Of a stretch of 34,834 nucleotides of DNA, positions 17,523-34,834 are shown one piece after another. This stretch comes from a virus, in the IMG/VR virus record IMGVR_UViG_3300048925_000627, positions 1-34,834 of that record; one strand, 5' to 3'. The position numbers and the translations under genes were made by a program. Within the stretch, counting starts at the first letter, position 1; every line of letters begins with the position of its first letter. The notes below the pieces were generated by a model. The model did not search any database. It saw only the letters and a list, made by a program, of their open reading frames with translations, and was not told where the DNA came from.

Positions 17523-19289
17523 ATGAACCCGACACTAATCAATCCCGATCTCGACCCGCGAAAACAGGCCATGTTCCTGTATTTCAGCGGCATACGCATA
17601 GCCCGCATTGCTGAAATGCTGGGCGAGAAAGCCGCAACTGTTCACAGTTGGAAAAAGCGTGACAAATGGGCCGAGATCGGCCCGCTTGAACAAATGCAGC
17701 TCACAACGGCGGCGCGCTATTGCCAATTGGTTATGAAGCAGCAGAAGGAGGGGCGCGACTACAAAGAGATTGATCTGCTTTCGCGACAGGCAGTACAGCA
17801 GGCAAGGATCGGGAAATTCAATAACGGCGGTAATGAAGCCGATCTGAATCCCAAAGTTGCCAACCGTAATAGCGGGCCGCGCAAAGCACCAGAGAAAAAT
17901 GTCTTTACTGACGAGCAGATCGAACAACTACAGGAGATTTTTCAGGCTGGGATGTTCGAATACCAGAAGCACTGGTGGCGAGCTGGCGTTGAAAACCGTA
18001 TACGTAATCTGCTGAAATCCCGCCAGATAGGGGCGACTTACTATTTTGCTCGTGAGGCGTTAATTGACGCACTTACAACCGGGCGAAACCAGATTTTCCT
18101 TTCAGCAAGCAAGGCTCAGGCGCACGTTTTCAAACAGTACATTATTGAATTTGCCAGAGAGGTTGATGTTGACCTGAAAGGCGACCCAATGACACTGCCC
18201 AATGGCGCGACATTGTATTTCCTCGGCACGAATGCCCGCACCGCGCAGAGTTATCACGGCAACCTTTACCTTGATGAATACTTCTGGATACCTAAATTTC
18301 AGGAGCTGCGTAAAGTCGCATCGGGTATGGCGCTACATAAAAAATGGCGTCAGACCTATTTTTCAACCCCTTCCAGCCTGACGCACAGCGCTTATCCGTT
18401 CTGGTCCGGTGCGTTGTTCAACAAGGGCCGCCCTAAAGCGGACCGCGTCGAATTTGACCTTTCACATACCCATCTTGCGGCTGGCGTTCGTTGCCCGGAC
18501 GGGCAATATCGCCAGATTGTGACGATAGAGGATGCCGTAAACGGCGGATGTAACCTTTTTGACCTCGATCAGCTACGGCTTGAATACAGCCCGGATGAGT
18601 ATGAAAACCTGCTGATGTGCCAGTTTGTGGATGACCTGGCATCTGTATTCCCGCTGGCAATGATGCAGGGATGCATGGTCGATAGCTGGGATGTCTGGGA
18701 CGATTTCGAACCGCTGTTGATCCGCCCGTTTGGCTGGAAGCAGGTATGGATTGGTTACGACCCAGCGAAGGGGACGACAAACGGGGATAGCGCAGGATGC
18801 GTGGTCATTGCACCGCCTGATGTTCCTGGCGGTAAATTTCGAATTCTTGAACGTCATCAGTGGCGCGGAATGGATTTCCGGGCGCAGGCCGCAGCCATAC
18901 AAGAGATCACCAGGCGCTATAACGTGACCTACATCGGTATTGACTCTACCGGCGTGGGTGATGGTGTTTACAAAACAGTGAAGCAATTTTTCCCGGCGGC
19001 CCGTGAATTTATTTATAACCCCAACGTGAAAAATGCCCTGGTACTTAAAGCCTGGGACATTGTTAACGCCCGGCGCCTGGAGTTTGACGCGGGCCTTACC
19101 GACATTGCGCAGTCATTTATGGCAATTCGCCGAGCTACTACCGCCAGCGGCAACCGCCCAACCTATGAAGCATCACGCAGCGAAGAAGCCAGCCACGCCG
19201 ATTTAGCCTGGGCGACGATGCACGCACTATTTAACGAACCGCTGGAAGGAACCACCGCCAGCAACCAAAATATTGTGGAGATTTTCTGA
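17523..19289 (+). CDS. P: terminase large subunit P
   Basis: This 588-residue protein matches P2 gpP (590 residues), the ATPase that drives DNA packaging. An N-terminal helix-turn-helix (IARIAEMLGEKAATVHSWKKRDKW, about residues 26-49) is followed by a Walker A-like SRQIGAT (166-172), Walker B LYLDEY (248-253) and coupling motif FSTPSS (280-285). The nuclease half has YDPAKG (412-417) and GIDSTGVGDG (472-481), with acidic residues expected in the RNase H fold. The ribosome-binding site is odd: AAGGAG lies 26 bases upstream, an in-frame stop at 17511 blocks longer starts, and only weak pairing is near the ATG. Confidence 0.97.
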   Translation: MNPTLINPDLDPRKQAMFLYFSGIRIARIAEMLGEKAATVHSWKKRDKWAEIGPLEQMQLTTAARYCQLVMKQQKEGRDYKEIDLLSRQAVQQARIGKFNNGGNEADLNPKVANRNSGPRKAPEKNVFTDEQIEQLQEIFQAGMFEYQKHWWRAGVENRIRNLLKSRQIGATYYFAREALIDALTTGRNQIFLSASKAQAHVFKQYIIEFAREVDVDLKGDPMTLPNGATLYFLGTNARTAQSYHGNLYLDEYFWIPKFQELRKVASGMALHKKWRQTYFSTPSSLTHSAYPFWSGALFNKGRPKADRVEFDLSHTHLAAGVRCPDGQYRQIVTIEDAVNGGCNLFDLDQLRLEYSPDEYENLLMCQFVDDLASVFPLAMMQGCMVDSWDVWDDFEPLLIRPFGWKQVWIGYDPAKGTTNGDSAGCVVIAPPDVPGGKFRILERHQWRGMDFRAQAAAIQEITRRYNVTYIGIDSTGVGDGVYKTVKQFFPAAREFIYNPNVKNALVLKAWDIVNARRLEFDAGLTDIAQSFMAIRRATTASGNRPTYEASRSEEASHADLAWATMHALFNEPLEGTTASNQNIVEIF

Positions 19290-20338
19290 TGGGTAAACGT
19301 CATTACAGAAAGAAAAGCGCACCGCGCCAACCCGAAATGACAATGGCCAACACTGCCAGTTCTGCCCATGCAGAGGCGTTTTCGTTCGGCGATCCGATTC
19401 CGGTGCTCGACCGGCGTGAACTGTTTGACTATCTCGAATGTGTTCAGGTTGACCGCTGGTATGAACCGCCGATCAGTATGGATGGCCTGGCCCGAACTTA
19501 CCGGGCGGCAGTTCATCACAGTAGCGCCATCCAGGTTAAGTGCAACATTCTGACCAGTACGTTTATTCCGCACCGATTCCTGTCGCAGCAGGCATTTTCG
19601 CGCTTTGCACTCGATTTTCTGACATTCGGTAATGCTTACCTCGAACAACGTGTAAATCGCCTCGGACAGACGTTGAGCCTGCAACCGGCACTGGCAAAAT
19701 ATACCCGACGCGGTGTTGAACCTGACCAATACTGGTTTGCGCAATATGGGTACAACAAAGAACCGTACCCATTTGAGCAGGGCAGGGTGTTTCACCTCAT
19801 GGAGCCGGATTTAAATCAGGAGTTGTACGGCCTGCCGCAGTATCTGTCGGCTATCCCGTCGGCATTACTGAATGAGTCTGCCACGCTGTTTCGTCGTAAA
19901 TACTATCTGAACGGTAGCCATGCGGGTTTCATCATGTACATGAGCGACCCGGCGGCAAATCAGGAAGATGTCGACAACATCCGAGAGGCACTTAAGAAAT
20001 CAAAGGGGCCGGGTAACTTTCGTAACCTGTTTATGTACTCGCCGAACGGGAAGAAGGATGGGATTCAGATCATTCCATTGTCAGAGGTTGCGGCTAAAGA
20101 TGAATTTCTCAACATCAAGAATGTATCGCGTGATGATATGTTGGCTGCGCATCGAGTCCCACCACAATTAATGGGGATCATCCCAACAAATACGGGAGGG
20201 TTTGGTGATGTAGAAAAATCAGCACGGGTATTTGTCAGGAATGAATTACGACCATTACAAAAAAAAATGGAAGAATTAAATACATGGCTTGAAGAAAAAA
20301 TTATGGTTTTTGATAAATATTTATTGGATATCGAATAA
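19289..20338 (+). CDS. Q: portal protein Q
   Basis: This 349-residue protein matches P2 gpQ (344 residues), the dodecameric portal through which DNA enters and leaves the head. Recognised stretches are FDYLECVQVDRWYEPPIS, FLTFGNAYLEQRVNRLG, HAGFIMYMSDPAANQEDVDN and HRVPPQLMGIIPTNTGGFGD. The ATG shares one base with the P stop codon (TGATG). The last 40 or so codons (from about 20200) become strikingly AT-rich, with long A runs, unlike the rest of the gene. This suggests that the 3' end came in with the neighbouring cargo operon. Confidence 0.96.
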   Translation: MGKRHYRKKSAPRQPEMTMANTASSAHAEAFSFGDPIPVLDRRELFDYLECVQVDRWYEPPISMDGLARTYRAAVHHSSAIQVKCNILTSTFIPHRFLSQQAFSRFALDFLTFGNAYLEQRVNRLGQTLSLQPALAKYTRRGVEPDQYWFAQYGYNKEPYPFEQGRVFHLMEPDLNQELYGLPQYLSAIPSALLNESATLFRRKYYLNGSHAGFIMYMSDPAANQEDVDNIREALKKSKGPGNFRNLFMYSPNGKKDGIQIIPLSEVAAKDEFLNIKNVSRDDMLAAHRVPPQLMGIIPTNTGGFGDVEKSARVFVRNELRPLQKKMEELNTWLEEKIMVFDKYLLDIE

Positions 20339-20340
20339 AA

Positions 20341-20363
20341 AAAGGCACTCTATGAGTGCCTTT
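20341..20363. terminator. bidirectional terminator between Q and the cargo operon
   Basis: GGCACTC (20344-20350) and GAGTGCC (20354-20360) form a perfect stem, extended by AAA/TTT to ten pairs. On the minus strand it is followed by at least seven U residues, so it is a strong terminator for the 20366-22701 operon. On the plus strand the T run is only three bases, so it also could end the P-Q transcript, less efficiently. Convergent genes share it. Confidence 0.85.
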
Positions 20364-20365
20364 GC

Positions 20366-21205
20366 CTAAATTGCTGGTCCGATGAAGTCTCCTTGTGTGG
20401 CTGGTCGTAAGCTAATGTACTCCACTCTCCATTGGTCCATTCTTCTTAGGTCGTATAGCGAAAACCCTTGATCACTTACAGCAAGACATGATTCCAGAGC
20501 GATTGTTTTACTTTCATCTGGTTTTCCATGTATAGCATGCATTTTTGCCGTTATTTCTTTACAAATATTCTCAGCGTTTTCTCTACCTTGGCCGGCACCT
20601 TCAACAGAATCATAAACTACACGAATGTGAAGCTCGTAAGGTGTTTCATCGTCCAGTTCTTCATGCCGATCTTCGCCCAAGTCGAAAAAAATACCTACAA
20701 TAAATTTAGCGTTTTTCTCTACGACTTTTGCAATTGACCTGATTAGGTTACCTTTCCCATTTTCAGTCATTCTAAGTCGCTTTTCGAATATATCAGGAAA
20801 AGCTGGCCGCCCATATCTTGCTGCAAGCCACTGTTTAAGTGCTTGTTTTTCTATAGGAGATATTGCAAATTCTTTATCAGCCTCATCGGCTGCAAAAATT
20901 GCTCTTTCAAACAAAAATTTTTGCTCGTGAGTAAGCTCTAAAGCATAACCATCGTGAATTTCATCACTTAACGCTAGATGCAATGTCCTTGGATGTTTAG
21001 CATTAGAGAAATTCCCATCAAGTTGAACAAGTTTACCTTTGATAAACTCGAGCACAGAGTCAGCTTCGTCATTTTGTATATCACAGTCATGAGTGATCAT
21101 GATTATCTTATGTGCAGTGTCCTCTGCATCAAGAAGTTTTAAGGACACCGCATCTTCATGTTTTAACACTTGGCCTTGACGCCAAGTAGATCCTGACTCA
21201 AGCAT
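20366..21205 (-). CDS. cargo operon protein with HDCD motif, unknown function
   Basis: I do not recognise a named family for this 279-residue soluble protein. It opens WRQGQVL (residues 8-14) and has IMITHDCDI (35-43), a motif shared by a group of uncharacterised proteins with a WRQG...DCD N-terminus. ARYGRPAFPD (129-138) and an acidic stretch FDLGEDRHEELDDETPYEL (174-192) follow. Clustered Asp, His and Cys could bind metal, but no known nuclease fold is evident. No signal or membrane segment is seen. It is third in a three-gene operon, 11 bases after the preceding stop, with AGGA nine bases upstream. Base composition is more AT-rich than the core genes. A role in phage exclusion is an inference from position. 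Confidence 0.7.
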   Translation of the reverse strand: MLESGSTWRQGQVLKHEDAVSLKLLDAEDTAHKIIMITHDCDIQNDEADSVLEFIKGKLVQLDGNFSNAKHPRTLHLALSDEIHDGYALELTHEQKFLFERAIFAADEADKEFAISPIEKQALKQWLAARYGRPAFPDIFEKRLRMTENGKGNLIRSIAKVVEKNAKFIVGIFFDLGEDRHEELDDETPYELHIRVVYDSVEGAGQGRENAENICKEITAKMHAIHGKPDESKTIALESCLAVSDQGFSLYDLRRMDQWRVEYISLRPATQGDFIGPAI

Positions 21206-21216
21206 CCAACGTATTC

Positions 21217-21876
21217 CTATTCCTGAATAACTGAACCGGGAATTGATATCGATGATTTCCAGCTATCTGTCGGGACGGCCTTGCTTGGAATTTCTGAGGA
21301 CGCTTTCGTTGCTTGGTTCATAATTTTTGCCTCTTTTATCAAAAGGTCAATTGGACCTTGCCATTCGGCACCTTCCTTGATGAGGTTCATCAGGGATTTA
21401 CCATCAAAAGCTTTCATCTTAACTAAAATTTTTGAATTGGTAATATTGGCACTCTTGAATTCATCCGCAACCAGACTGAGCGTTTTAACATATTCCATCT
21501 TAATGTCGTCATCAGGTGTGCTTTCTCCGCTAAGCCATTTATAAACGGCTTGGCGGCTCACCCCTAAATCTTTTGCTAACTCTGACATAGACGGATTGAT
21601 TACTGACCGGATGTTTTCCATATGATCTGCAATCGTTCTGATATCTAAATCGTTCGATGCTGATGTCGCATCGTACGAATCTACCATAAACCTCTCAACG
21701 ATAATGCTTGGAGAGGTCTTCGATTCGAAGAATCGAATACACTTAGCCATATTTTCTACAAGGTACCCTGCACTTGTACCCCGGATATGAGTTAAAGCTG
21801 TCCCGGAATCTCCGAAACCCATAATCGACTGAAAATTCAATCGATTAAAATTACTTCCTGTAGACGCTACCAGCAT
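21217..21876 (-). CDS. cargo operon helix-turn-helix protein
   Basis: This 219-residue protein contains one clear helix-turn-helix, MSELAKDLGVSRQAVYKWLSGE (about residues 96-117), of the XRE/phage repressor type. The N-terminal 90 residues (VASTGSNFNRLNFQSIMGFG and onward) and the C-terminal 80 residues (LIKEGAEWQGPIDLLIKEA) match nothing I know. It could be the regulator of the operon or a DNA-binding subunit of the system. AGGAGG lies six bases before the ATG at 21876. A second ATG at 21880 is in another frame. It is the middle gene, 18 bases after the TIGR04255-like gene. It is not a P2 core gene. Confidence 0.75.
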   Translation of the reverse strand: MLVASTGSNFNRLNFQSIMGFGDSGTALTHIRGTSAGYLVENMAKCIRFFESKTSPSIIVERFMVDSYDATSASNDLDIRTIADHMENIRSVINPSMSELAKDLGVSRQAVYKWLSGESTPDDDIKMEYVKTLSLVADEFKSANITNSKILVKMKAFDGKSLMNLIKEGAEWQGPIDLLIKEAKIMNQATKASSEIPSKAVPTDSWKSSISIPGSVIQE

Positions 21877-21894
21877 ACATGACCTCCTTTGCTA

Positions 21895-22701
21895 CTAGTT
21901 CCATTTCTCGAGAGCATGAGGGGAAACTATCTGATCAAACGATTTTCTGACCACTTCGTATAATGACTGTAGTTGCTTTTGCACATTTTCCAACGAAGGT
22001 TTGATCATACCTTCGGCGTAGTGGTCTGTGTCTACAATACAATGCCACTGGTGGGGGGTTCTTTTAAATCGTTCTTTTACTGTTACCCCATTAGGTACCA
22101 TATCTGGAGGAAAAGAAAGATGCCCATGCATTTTATGAACGCGTGTCACTATTACGCCATGTGATACCAAAGGGCCGATTTCCGTTTGGAAAACTTGCTC
22201 ATTTGTTGATTGGATCTGGCGCAAATCAAGCTGGACACCATGCAACCCTTCGCAAAGATAATCTTCTATGTCTTCCCCTGGTTCCGGCAGTACTGCATCC
22301 AAGTAACGCATTCCCAAACGTGTGATCAATGTTGGTTGTGCATGAGCCATTACTTTTTCTAGACCAAGCATAAAATTGTTGATGAATTCTACATGCGAAG
22401 TATATTCGGTCGTCTGAAATGTTATCGAATCCGTAGACAAAATGAACCCCGAATTTGATTCGGCGTTAGTCATGAACCACTGTTTTACAATTTCAATGTT
22501 TGTGGTGGGTTGTTCATTCGGAGTACCGACTTCAAACTTGAATTGTTGCACTGTAGTTTCCTGATACATAGGATAACCTTGCAACCGTAATGAATCCTGA
22601 ATATCTTCGACATACCTGTTCATAGCTGGTACAGGCGTAAATTTGGCCTGTATTAGTGCATAGTAAACGGGTGCATTGGTCATGATCCTTGCTTGTCTCA
22701 T
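21895..22701 (-). CDS. cargo operon TIGR04255-like protein
   Basis: This 268-residue protein resembles the uncharacterised TIGR04255 family: an N-terminal TNAPVYYALIQAKFTPVPAM (about residues 8-27), a long helix with YVEDIQDSLRLQGYP, and a C-terminus ending in an ALEKWN-type motif after a helix. No catalytic motif or membrane segment is seen. The start at 22701 is chosen because AGGAGG lies five bases upstream and the family motif begins just after it. The open frame runs on to 22752. It is first in the three-gene operon and nearest to cos. No convincing promoter hexamers were found in the AT-rich stretch upstream (22720-22850). Function unknown. Confidence 0.68.
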   Translation of the reverse strand: MRQARIMTNAPVYYALIQAKFTPVPAMNRYVEDIQDSLRLQGYPMYQETTVQQFKFEVGTPNEQPTTNIEIVKQWFMTNAESNSGFILSTDSITFQTTEYTSHVEFINNFMLGLEKVMAHAQPTLITRLGMRYLDAVLPEPGEDIEDYLCEGLHGVQLDLRQIQSTNEQVFQTEIGPLVSHGVIVTRVHKMHGHLSFPPDMVPNGVTVKERFKRTPHQWHCIVDTDHYAEGMIKPSLENVQKQLQSLYEVVRKSFDQIVSPHALEKWN

Positions 22702-22865
22702 GTCGCCCTCCTGTTCTAATCCGTCACAATGAATGTTTGTCAGTTTACACATTGGTTGACACCTTCTCTATAACATAGTTCACTTCTTCTGATTTAGATG
22801 GTTTAAAAAGGAATATAAAAACTATCTAGATCTCCTCATAGCGTCCTTCTTCCCCAAAAAGCGCG

Positions 22866-22884
22866 CTCGTAGCCCCGCCACGCC
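22866..22884 (-). other. cos site (cohesive end sequence)
   Basis: On the minus strand these 19 bases read GGCGTGGCGGGGCTACGAG. From memory, the cohesive ends of 186 and P2 begin GGCGTGGCGGGG and GGCGAGGCGGGG, so the first 12 bases agree exactly with 186. The site lies between portal Q and the replication side, where cos belongs. The rest of the 320-base gap 22702-23021 holds the leader of the cargo operon, the GCATG repeats (22895-23016) and an imperfect hairpin (22960-22969 and 22977-22986), but no gene. The exact nick positions are inferred. Confidence 0.75.
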
Positions 22885-30992: not shown

Positions 30993-31038
30993 TTCGACTG
31001 GATAATATGATCCGTTTTGTTATCTGTAAATAGTCGAA
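30993..31038 (-). promoter_or_regulatory. early promoter pR with flanking operator-like inverted repeat
   Basis: On the minus strand TTTACA (31025-31030) is followed after 17 bases by TATTAT (31002-31007), a strong promoter for the Cox/Apl-CII operon with a start near 30995. AGTCGAA (31032-31038) and TTCGACT (30993-30999) are a perfect inverted repeat bracketing it, and GGAT/ATCC (31000-31013) is a smaller palindrome over the -10. These are the best candidates for CI operators. A promoter for cI in the other direction was not clearly found. Confidence 0.7.
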
Positions 31039-31058
31039 ATGGATTATTTGGGGTTTCT

Positions 31059-31904
31059 ATGGCTATTGAATTTGATGACGTAAAGGAAGTGCTTGAAAGA
31101 ATACTGGTTTCGTATGGTGTTAAGAGCAGGGTTGAGTTGGCATCCCTCTTGGCCGTGCCACTACCAACCATCAACAATTGGGTGGCAAGAGAGAACATTC
31201 CGGGTAACTACATCATTCAATGTTCAATAGAGACTGGCTCCGATCTTGAATGGCTGGTTACAGGGAAACTTGCAAATGCGAGTTTTGAAAGTCACGCATC
31301 TGACTTCAAAGGCAAAGAATTGTATGACCAGATCTTGGCGTCTGGAGGTAAAGCCGTATTACAACGCATCATGTCGGCGTATGGCTTTACTATGCAAAAG
31401 GAGTTAGGAGACCTGCTTGGCCTCTCCTCTGGCACAATTAGTACGTGGGTTAGGCGTGATTACTTTCCCGGAGATGTGGTCGTCGCCTGTGCTCTCGATA
31501 CAGGAGTTGACTTGGGCTGGTTAGCTACAGGGAAGGGGGAACCCTTTGCAAAGGTTAACGCCAAAGGAAACTCAACCAATATTCTATCGATCCCGGCTCA
31601 ATTGCTGATTAATGGAAGATTAGAACCTAAAGGCGAAACCGTCATAGATACGAATGTGATTTCTACAGCGAATAAAGACTGTGCATTAATTACAAAAGAT
31701 TCAGTTTCATGGTGTGTAAACATGAAGGAAGACACCATTGTAAATGGTTTTTGTTTACTTGCGATTGACGGCGTTATCGATGTCTACAATGTAACAAGAC
31801 TACCCGGAAATAAAATAAAAGTTGCCTCATCTTCCGGTGACTCCTTTGAATGCCGGACCGAAGATGTTTCATGCATCGGTGTTATTTTAAAAACTATCAA
31901 TTAA
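31059..31904 (+). CDS. cI: CI repressor of 186 type with duplicated DNA-binding domain
   Basis: This 281-residue protein belongs to the phage 186 CI family, whose usual length is about 190. The C-terminal domain (about 175-281; IDGVIDVYNVTRLPGNKIKV and FECRTEDVSCIG) matches the 186 CI oligomerisation domain. The N-terminal DNA-binding domain occurs twice, at residues 8-70 and 97-159, with 28 of 63 positions identical, both with LxxLL, TI..WV and DLxWLxTGK. No RecA-cleavage (S24 peptidase) features are seen, which fits control by an SOS-induced antirepressor. The ATG at 31059 follows GGGG by five bases; the frame opens earlier at a TTG. It should repress pR at 31002-31030. Confidence 0.9.
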   Translation: MAIEFDDVKEVLERILVSYGVKSRVELASLLAVPLPTINNWVARENIPGNYIIQCSIETGSDLEWLVTGKLANASFESHASDFKGKELYDQILASGGKAVLQRIMSAYGFTMQKELGDLLGLSSGTISTWVRRDYFPGDVVVACALDTGVDLGWLATGKGEPFAKVNAKGNSTNILSIPAQLLINGRLEPKGETVIDTNVISTANKDCALITKDSVSWCVNMKEDTIVNGFCLLAIDGVIDVYNVTRLPGNKIKVASSSGDSFECRTEDVSCIGVILKTIN

Positions 31905-31915
31905 AAGGACTCAGG

Positions 31916-32440
31916 ATGTTTAAAAAAATTGCACTATTAGCCCTTTTTATACCTACTGCTTCCATAGCTGCCCCTCAGCATTTTAGCGATGTAACAAGCA
32001 TGATGAGTGAGTACAATGATTACTCCCCAGATATTGGAACTTTTAAGGTACTCTCCGAAAAACCATTAAAAATACAAATCTCCCCAAAAGTTCTATCAGG
32101 GGATAGTGACGAGTCGATTAAATTAAATATTTACAAAGCTTCTGTGTATGCTGCTTATAGAACACTGTTGCAAACATCATCTGACAAAGTAAATGTGACG
32201 GTTGTTCCTTTGTTTTTTGATTTGGCTAAACATGAAAAGAAATACTTAACAGCTCAGAAAGTTTCTTTTTCTCTGACTAAAGAAAAAGCGCTCCAATTAG
32301 CAGGTAAAGCCGGTGGGACCGATAGCCCGGATGCGATAATTTCTGATGATGGCGAATGGACGAATAATTTTAGTGCGTGCTGTTATAAGGAAACTGGCAA
32401 ACCCGGATTGGTTGCTTTTGCAAAAGAGCTGATGAAGTAA
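31916..32440 (+). CDS. secreted protein between cI and int, unknown function
   Basis: This 174-residue protein has a typical signal peptide, MFKKIALLALFIPTASIAA, cleaved probably after residue 18 or 19, so the mature protein should be periplasmic. The mature part has about 155 residues with SDDGEWTNNFSACCYKETGKPGL near the end and a CC pair. No known domain is recognised. AAGGA lies six bases before the ATG. It lies between cI and int on the lysogenic transcript, so it is expected to be made in the lysogen. It is not part of P2 or 186. Superinfection exclusion at the envelope would fit, but is only inferred. It is AT-rich. Confidence 0.8.
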   Translation: MFKKIALLALFIPTASIAAPQHFSDVTSMMSEYNDYSPDIGTFKVLSEKPLKIQISPKVLSGDSDESIKLNIYKASVYAAYRTLLQTSSDKVNVTVVPLFFDLAKHEKKYLTAQKVSFSLTKEKALQLAGKAGGTDSPDAIISDDGEWTNNFSACCYKETGKPGLVAFAKELMK

Positions 32441-33511: not shown

Positions 33512-34834
33512 ATGTCGAAACAGAATAATAACTTGATAGAGCAATTTATGTCTATTTATATGAAGGAGTATGATTATTATGACAAACTCTCTTCAAGTGT
33601 ACGATTGGAACTAGAGAAAAGTTTGAGTGATGCTGGCGTAAGAGCTATCGTTTCCTCTAGAGCCAAGGACTTTGAAAGCTTAAGAAATAAACTAATAAAA
33701 AGAACTTCATCAACTGCTCATGGTGATTATAAAAACATCAAAGAAATTTACGATGATATAGTTGATTTGGCTGGGGTCAGAGTGGCCCTTTATTTTCCGG
33801 GCGATATGGATAAAGTATCTTCAATAATTAATGGGTTATATGAGGTTATAATAAGTAAGGTTTTTCCAGAGGTAAAATCTGAAAAGAAAGAAGGTATTTA
33901 TCAGAAGAAATTTGATGGTTACCATGCAATACATTTTCGAATAAAAAGAACAGATAAAACTCGATACTCAAATACCCCAGTAGAGATTCAGGTTGCCTCA
34001 GTCCTCATGCATGCATGGTCAGAAGTAGAACATGATCTAGTATACAAACCATTGAGTGGTGGGATTTCAAAAGAGGAATTGATGATACTGGATGAAATTA
34101 ATGGGATGATGATTTCTGGTAATATATCACTAGAGCGCTTACAAACGGCTATGGTTGAAAGAGTCAATAAGCAAGATTATATTTTCCAAAATCATTATGA
34201 TTTGGCGGCATATTTGACTCAGGAAATTGGAGTTAATGAGATTGTTAATACAAAAGATTTGTATGACTTTCTGGCTAGGATTGGATTGCTATCTAAAGAA
34301 AGTCTATCAGAAGTGGTTTCAATGGCTAAAAATAGAATTAAAAAAATTCAAGGTGACAGTGGGGAGTCTGTAGCTAAAAAAAATTTGTATTTCCAAGATG
34401 GTTTTATGATGGCATATTTTGTTAATACAGTAGTTAAGGTGTTCCCTCAGAAAATAATTGATGTCATCTGTCATGGATATGTGCCTTTCAGCAGTTTGCG
34501 TCAGAAAATGGATTTGATGACGATGGCATTTATGAATTCATCTTATACTCCACTTGCACAAGCTACCATACTTGCTGAACAGCTAGCCATTATATCAAAA
34601 GATAACTCGGCCCCTAGTAAATATGAAATTAAAAATTTTGACATTGTTCTTGAACTAAAAAATAAAAGTGTCACATTAGAAGAAGCCAAAGCGAAGATGA
34701 TTGAGTTTACAAATGGGCTGTGCAATATAGTTCTTCCTGAATTTAATCAGGAATCATTTAAAAAGCTCCTCTGCTTAGCAGAGCAAGTCAAAGATATGAT
34801 TCAATTGAAATCGGTCGAACCGCAATCGTCATAA
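33512..34834 (+). CDS. RelA/SpoT-domain nucleotide synthetase-like protein
   Basis: This 440-residue protein has a RelA/SpoT synthetase domain at residues 40-180: R50-x-K52 with S56 and K60 (RAKDFESLRNK), D85 (DLAGVRV), GYHAIH (136-141) and E158 with Q160 (PVEIQVASVLMHAW, then EVEHDLVYK). These correspond to the ATP- and GTP-binding and metal residues of (p)ppGpp or (p)ppApp synthetases. There is no hydrolase domain. Residues 220-440 match nothing I know and look helical. AGGAGG is four bases before the ATG. The gene is markedly AT-rich and lies between int and the prophage end, where P2 has nothing, so it is a cargo gene. A growth-arresting defence effector is plausible but unproven. Confidence 0.85.
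   Translation: MSKQNNNLIEQFMSIYMKEYDYYDKLSSSVRLELEKSLSDAGVRAIVSSRAKDFESLRNKLIKRTSSTAHGDYKNIKEIYDDIVDLAGVRVALYFPGDMDKVSSIINGLYEVIISKVFPEVKSEKKEGIYQKKFDGYHAIHFRIKRTDKTRYSNTPVEIQVASVLMHAWSEVEHDLVYKPLSGGISKEELMILDEINGMMISGNISLERLQTAMVERVNKQDYIFQNHYDLAAYLTQEIGVNEIVNTKDLYDFLARIGLLSKESLSEVVSMAKNRIKKIQGDSGESVAKKNLYFQDGFMMAYFVNTVVKVFPQKIIDVICHGYVPFSSLRQKMDLMTMAFMNSSYTPLAQATILAEQLAIISKDNSAPSKYEIKNFDIVLELKNKSVTLEEAKAKMIEFTNGLCNIVLPEFNQESFKKLLCLAEQVKDMIQLKSVEPQSS

Follow-up and report, generated by a model that had tools for sequence, protein, structure and literature searches.

What does a compact operon of three genes do between the portal gene Q and the cos site of a P2-like phage? The question is raised by the IMG/VR record IMGVR_UViG_3300048925_000627, a viral stretch of 34,834 nt, here called the window at its full length, in which three genes that we name A, B and C lie on the minus strand. 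An earlier note, made from the DNA letters alone, had described them as a cargo operon and a candidate undescribed defence system encoding a TIGR04255-like protein, a helix-turn-helix (HTH) protein and a protein with WRQG and HDCD motifs, and profile searches and motif reading confirm these gene contents. The operon, its place in a defence hotspot and the co-occurrence of its genes elsewhere have all held up. The note offered no mechanism, and the evidence collected here points to a tripartite toxin-antitoxin-like anti-phage module that acts by abortive infection, which we regard as the probable answer. This interpretation rests on the conserved operon, the hotspot, the defence genes in the neighbourhood, the predicted fold of protein C, the HTH domain of protein B and the toxins found in the slot of gene C in other TIGR04255 operons; toxicity, neutralization, the role of protein A, the trigger and the protection are what we infer.

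The first 33 loci with a relative of gene C, taken from GTDB genomes and IMG/VR, keep the order A-B-C, with identities of 29-56%. After clustering of the gene C relatives at 90% identity, 48 of the 52 clusters showed A, B and C complete and in this order, three were cut by contig ends and one was without gene A; among the testable clusters the order is thus conserved in 48 of 49, with median gaps of -9 and 11 nt. Moreover, A, B and C diverge in parallel: their pairwise distances are correlated (Mantel rho 0.86-0.90), the best of 999 permutations reaching 0.40. Order and co-divergence both go far beyond chance and point to three genes that function and spread as one unit. The module was found in phages, on plasmids and on chromosomes, and in several phyla. 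Plasmid triplets come from Robbsia, Pseudomonas, Klebsiella, Acinetobacter, Vibrio, Meiothermus and two cyanobacteria, with identities of 18-43% for protein C, and in Escherichia coli, where 19 of 5,426 genomes contain the module, it sits in P2 prophages between the replication endonuclease gene and the portal gene. Co-occurrence of the three genes outside the phage, the key test that the earlier note had named, therefore came out strongly positive. At the sole intact locus where B and C stand without A (L069/L106, G354), a gene for an AFG1-type ATPase lies upstream, in the place of A. As the module adjoins cos and the portal gene and protein B is a DNA-binding protein, the operon might also regulate the lysogeny, packaging or superinfection of the P2-like phage itself. 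However, the finding of the same three genes in unrelated bacteria, both plasmid-borne and chromosomal, argues against such a role, and so do the module's own terminator and its different GC content (0.40-0.42 in the operon versus 0.50-0.55 on both flanks, the more AT-rich composition that had been claimed), which makes this explanation extremely unlikely.

In P2-like phages, defence genes are known from published work to accumulate in the A-cos-Q interval (Rousset 2022, PMC9122126; Vassallo 2022, PMC9519451), and the operon has the position of cargo in this hotspot, between gpA and gpQ and adjoining cos. It shares the place between Q and A beside cos with old, tin and the systems of Rousset (2022), and it differs from them in that a sequence relation to a known one was not found. 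The chromosomal copies of the module lie among defence genes as well. At E <= 1e-15, the 116 proteins adjoining 13 chromosomal copies match 254 PADLOC models, whereas 116 control proteins, drawn from arbitrary stretches in nine of these genomes, match 2, figures that count models, not proteins or loci. Among the models matched by the neighbours are AbiLi, PtuA, AriA, retron reverse transcriptase and ATPase, RmrA, viperin and AbiEii, and also a type I specificity subunit and type II/III methyltransferases. Furthermore, DNA methyltransferase/restriction genes are located a few kilobases away from the plasmid copies in Meiothermus and Acinetobacter. Because of these defence-rich neighbourhoods with a clean control, together with the P2 hotspot, the module likely has an anti-phage defence function; the defence role put forward before is strengthened by both and is still one that we infer from context. 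The presence of the module on large plasmids and prophages would also fit an addiction or maintenance unit, i.e., a toxin-antitoxin unit that stabilizes a prophage or plasmid and for which defence would be incidental, and partition genes too were found at the P2 spot (Rousset 2022, PMC9122126). The chromosomal copies among defence genes and the P2 spot as a known defence locus speak against this, and we consider it distinctly unlikely.

The candidate toxin of the module is protein C. It matches no Pfam family at E up to 1 and no NCBIfam family, and a sequence search of solved structures gave nothing significant; PHROG 34320, a family with no function, is touched by 23 of its 29 aligned relatives. 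In an AF2 model built from 29 sequences (predicted local distance difference test, pLDDT, 82; predicted template modelling score, pTM, 0.54), the first half of the protein is predicted to have the SH3-like barrel of the MazF/CcdB superfamily. Foldseek matches this N-terminal barrel to MazF (prob 1.00, E 3.6e-4), and the best 50 matches of the model in VIA are all MazF, CcdB or Kid (Z up to 8.7, root mean square deviation 3.3, 99 residues aligned). Identification of gene C as PemK/MazF by sequence was rejected, as profile-profile comparison remained at noise (E 0.03-0.06) and PF02452 was not matched, and upon inspection of the alignment an Arg-Pro motif equivalent to that of PemK/MazF was not conserved. 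Since the sequence profiles are at noise, only the fold and a bridging family of proteins, described below, point gene C to PemK/MazF. Besides the missing significant sequence match, protein C differs from the PemK/MazF/CcdB type II toxins (PF02452 and relatives) by a large extra C-terminal domain and by another set of invariant residues around its DCD motif. Among window-like relatives (n=29 sequences), D40, C41, D42, R73, W126, Y131 and R133 are invariant; in distant relatives the Cys of the HDCD motif (C41) is invariant and mostly followed by Asp, whereas the His is not invariant. With these conserved residues of its own and a second, unassigned domain, protein C could also belong to a defence system without toxin-antitoxin logic, in which A would recognize a phage component, C would attack phage nucleic acid and B would only regulate transcription, and the hotspot and the defence neighbourhoods would fit any defence mechanism. 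The toxin fold of C and the classical RNase toxins at the corresponding place in other TIGR04255 operons are at odds with such a system, which we therefore think unlikely.

This slot was surveyed in 60 TIGR04255 loci. A described function was not found for TIGR04255, yet the family is present in 30 of 321 gammaproteobacterial and 30 of 398 Pseudomonadota genomes, i.e., about 8-9% of those sampled, the two samples overlapping slightly. The TIGR04255 gene is usually the first one of a compact operon and is followed by two short genes, which are a B-C pair of the window type in 14 of the 60 loci. In others the third gene encodes a PemK/MazF toxin (L216; PF02452, 1.1e-18), a YhaV toxin (L124; PF11663, 1.4e-45), with a weak match of gene 2 to the PrlF antitoxin (0.0058), or a PIN-domain toxin (L119, 1.4e-8, and L141), and in L126 a PIN gene lies downstream. 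MazF, YhaV and PIN are RNase toxin families; as judged from the profile matches, every toxin recognized in this slot thus comes from a family of RNase toxins. In seven further loci (L128, L130, L131, L215, L218, L226, L230) the slot is occupied by the bridging family, which has the motifs QGD, SNTCD and VPL and whose profile matches the N-terminal domain of protein C with E 4.9e-6 and prob 86%, whereas about 35 control families score far worse. True PemK and this QGD/SNTCD family therefore share the operon slot of gene C, a second likeness to the PemK/MazF/CcdB toxins besides the predicted barrel.

Further types of TIGR04255 operons were observed in the same survey. In a large class, made up of L120-L122, L132-L139, L211, L221, L225 and L233-L238, a gene 2 with a WD(G)YGA-like motif precedes a gene 3 of about 140-160 aa, neither of which is assigned to a family; these pairs are possibly further toxin-antitoxin pairs. 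Another class (L114, L116, L212, L213) has a gene 3 of about 220 aa with a GLTCA(S/T)F motif, whose product may be a cysteine enzyme. The third genes of L129 and L232 appeared HEPN-like by eye, an identity that was dropped as Pfam gave no support for it.

Protein B is a candidate DNA-binding antitoxin. It contains an HTH_3 domain (7.7e-6), and the best relatives of its profile among solved structures are HigA-2 antitoxins (1.8e-4). In 67% of its relatives a hydrophobic segment is present at the N-terminus, which might be a chaperone-addiction segment. As a defining feature of gene B this segment was discarded, since it is not universal and is degenerate in the copy of the window.

Protein A is, by its profile match, a full-length member of TIGR04255 (sporadTIGR04255): it covers positions 2-252 of the 252 in the NCBIfam profile with 2.8e-42 and 145.3 bits, the curated cut-off being 30 bits. 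The function of this family is not described, and its member in the window is now linked to an HTH protein and protein C. The AF2 model of protein A (pLDDT 88, pTM 0.87) has a well-predicted alpha/beta arrangement. The fold matches, a guanido kinase catalytic domain with Z 8.7 and TBP and AdoMetDC with about 7.3, are none of them clearly above background, and a sequence search of solved structures returned nothing significant. SecB is absent among the fold matches listed, which excludes nothing. Protein A as a SecB homolog was nevertheless rejected, as comparison of its profile with SecB proteins gave noise (E 0.26) and the SecB Pfam family was not matched.

Taken together, the module could work as follows. 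Protein C would be the toxin, probably an RNase or another growth inhibitor of the MazF/CcdB fold, and protein B the antitoxin, which would neutralize C and repress the operon. Protein A would be the third partner and would either maintain the function of B or perceive an infection signal. A rival phage that disturbs A or B would cause the release of C, and the freed toxin would halt growth before phage release, so that the infection is aborted. Of the designs that have been worked out, that of the toxin-antitoxin-chaperone (TAC) systems comes closest. In CmdTAC, a capsid protein takes away the SecB-like chaperone, whereupon the antitoxin is degraded and the toxin freed (PMC11618068). In HigBA-SecB, a C-terminal addiction sequence ties the antitoxin to the chaperone and can be transferred to other proteins, also to the N-terminus (Bordes 2016, PMC5105189). 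Like the operon of the window, both have three adjacent genes. Theirs encode an antitoxin (of the HTH type in HigA), a toxin and a further partner, the roles that B, C and A would have here; a given type of third partner is combined with several toxin families, and CmdTAC protects against phages, as proposed here. However, the proposed third partner in the window is a TIGR04255 protein without similarity to SecB by profile, its gene comes first and those of the proposed antitoxin and toxin follow, which is the opposite order, the hydrophobic segment of the B relatives is, where present, N-terminal and not a C-terminal chaperone-addiction (ChAD) sequence, and the toxin candidate is neither HigB nor an ADP-ribosyltransferase.

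Several observations weigh against a tripartite toxin-antitoxin module. As protein A has no SecB similarity by profile, a chaperone role for it is an analogy. The hydrophobic segment is missing or degenerate in protein B of the window (0.45), and the surveyed C-type loci are not above random proteins in this respect. For protein C, neither Pfam nor profile comparison gave a significant sequence match to PemK/MazF, the best fold match (Z 8.7) barely exceeds background, and the predicted toxin fold covers the N-terminal half, the C-terminal half being without assignment. Finally, a targeted scan of ten chosen neighbours gave a PADLOC match in one only, and the defence matches may therefore come from a part of the loci. 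Even so, we hold the tripartite toxin-antitoxin module to be the probable one, and there is about an even chance that it is one case of many: TIGR04255 would then be the shared third component of a large unrecognized class of tripartite toxin-antitoxin immune systems, functionally SecB-like but of another fold and joined to interchangeable sets of antitoxin and toxin (C type, MazF, YhaV and PIN, besides several unknown ones), with the operon of the window as a C-type member. If this is true, one function assignment for TIGR04255 would explain many unannotated operons at once, a non-SecB solution would be added to the ways in which infection switches toxin-antitoxin systems, and the P2 hotspot would yield a directly testable phage-defence module.

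Whether the system is undescribed, as had been suggested, can be answered in part. In PADLOC, the proteins of the window and their E. coli, cyanobacterial and Acinetobacter relatives match no model beyond generic HTH; the matches to RmrA and mad1 concern the HTH only and were not accepted as membership. A literature search by TIGR number and by accession gave nothing, the name TIGR04255 being absent from the papers covered. Both results agree with an undescribed system, which has to be set against an unnamed three-gene system of the P2 hotspot that was described as having "no clear predicted domain" and validated as blocking P1 (Rousset 2022, PMC9122126). The module could be this very system, which would be compatible with a tripartite toxin-antitoxin module: hotspot and number of genes are the same, and the module occurs in E. 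coli P2 prophages. However, the clear HTH of protein B and the named family of protein A do not fit "no clear predicted domain", and the E. coli copy matches no PADLOC model, although PADLOC holds AriA from the same hotspot study. From this comparison, which was by description only, we judge the identity to be very unlikely.

The features of the operon and its surroundings are listed in Table 1. Open reading frames, portal gene and cos core were all located, and the compact minus-strand operon between Q and cos, its cargo position in the hotspot and its own strong terminator are thus as the earlier note had stated. The longest reading frame of gene A spans 21895-22752; homologs and an upstream AGGAGG favour the ATG at 22701, which was therefore taken as the start, in agreement with the earlier note. 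AAAGGAGG was found upstream of gene B. The gaps are 18 nt between A and B and 11 nt between B and C, and a search of the operon region for sigma-70 promoters gave nothing above chance.

Table 1. The A-B-C operon and flanking features, with positions in the window.
Feature	Position	Strand	Remarks
Gene A, TIGR04255 family protein, 268 aa	21895..22701	-	Proposed regulator, chaperone or sensor; NCBIfam TIGR04255 match
Gene B, helix-turn-helix protein, 219 aa	21217..21876	-	Proposed antitoxin and repressor; HTH_3 match
Gene C, 279 aa, WRQG and HDCD motifs	20366..21205	-	Proposed toxin; N-terminal domain (about residues 3-135) MazF/CcdB-like by predicted fold
Intrinsic terminator between gene C and the convergent portal gene	20341..20363	-	10-bp stem, 3-nt loop, T tail
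P2-type cos core GGCGTGGCGGGG, upstream of the operon	22873..22884	-	Single match, 0.01 expected
Portal gene Q, convergent hotspot flank	19289..20338	+	PHROG 68 portal, 7.3e-167

A second defence gene possibly lies at the integrase end of the phage. Right behind the integrase gene, a 440-aa protein is encoded on the plus strand (33512-34834) in AT-rich DNA; it has an N-terminal RelA/SpoT-type synthetase domain (YwaC 2.4e-8) and a long extra C-terminal part and is a possible small-alarmone-synthetase toxin. Another AT-rich gene on the plus strand (31850-32440), whose product has a signal-peptide-like N-terminus, lies between an HTH repressor-like gene (31017-31904) and the integrase gene.
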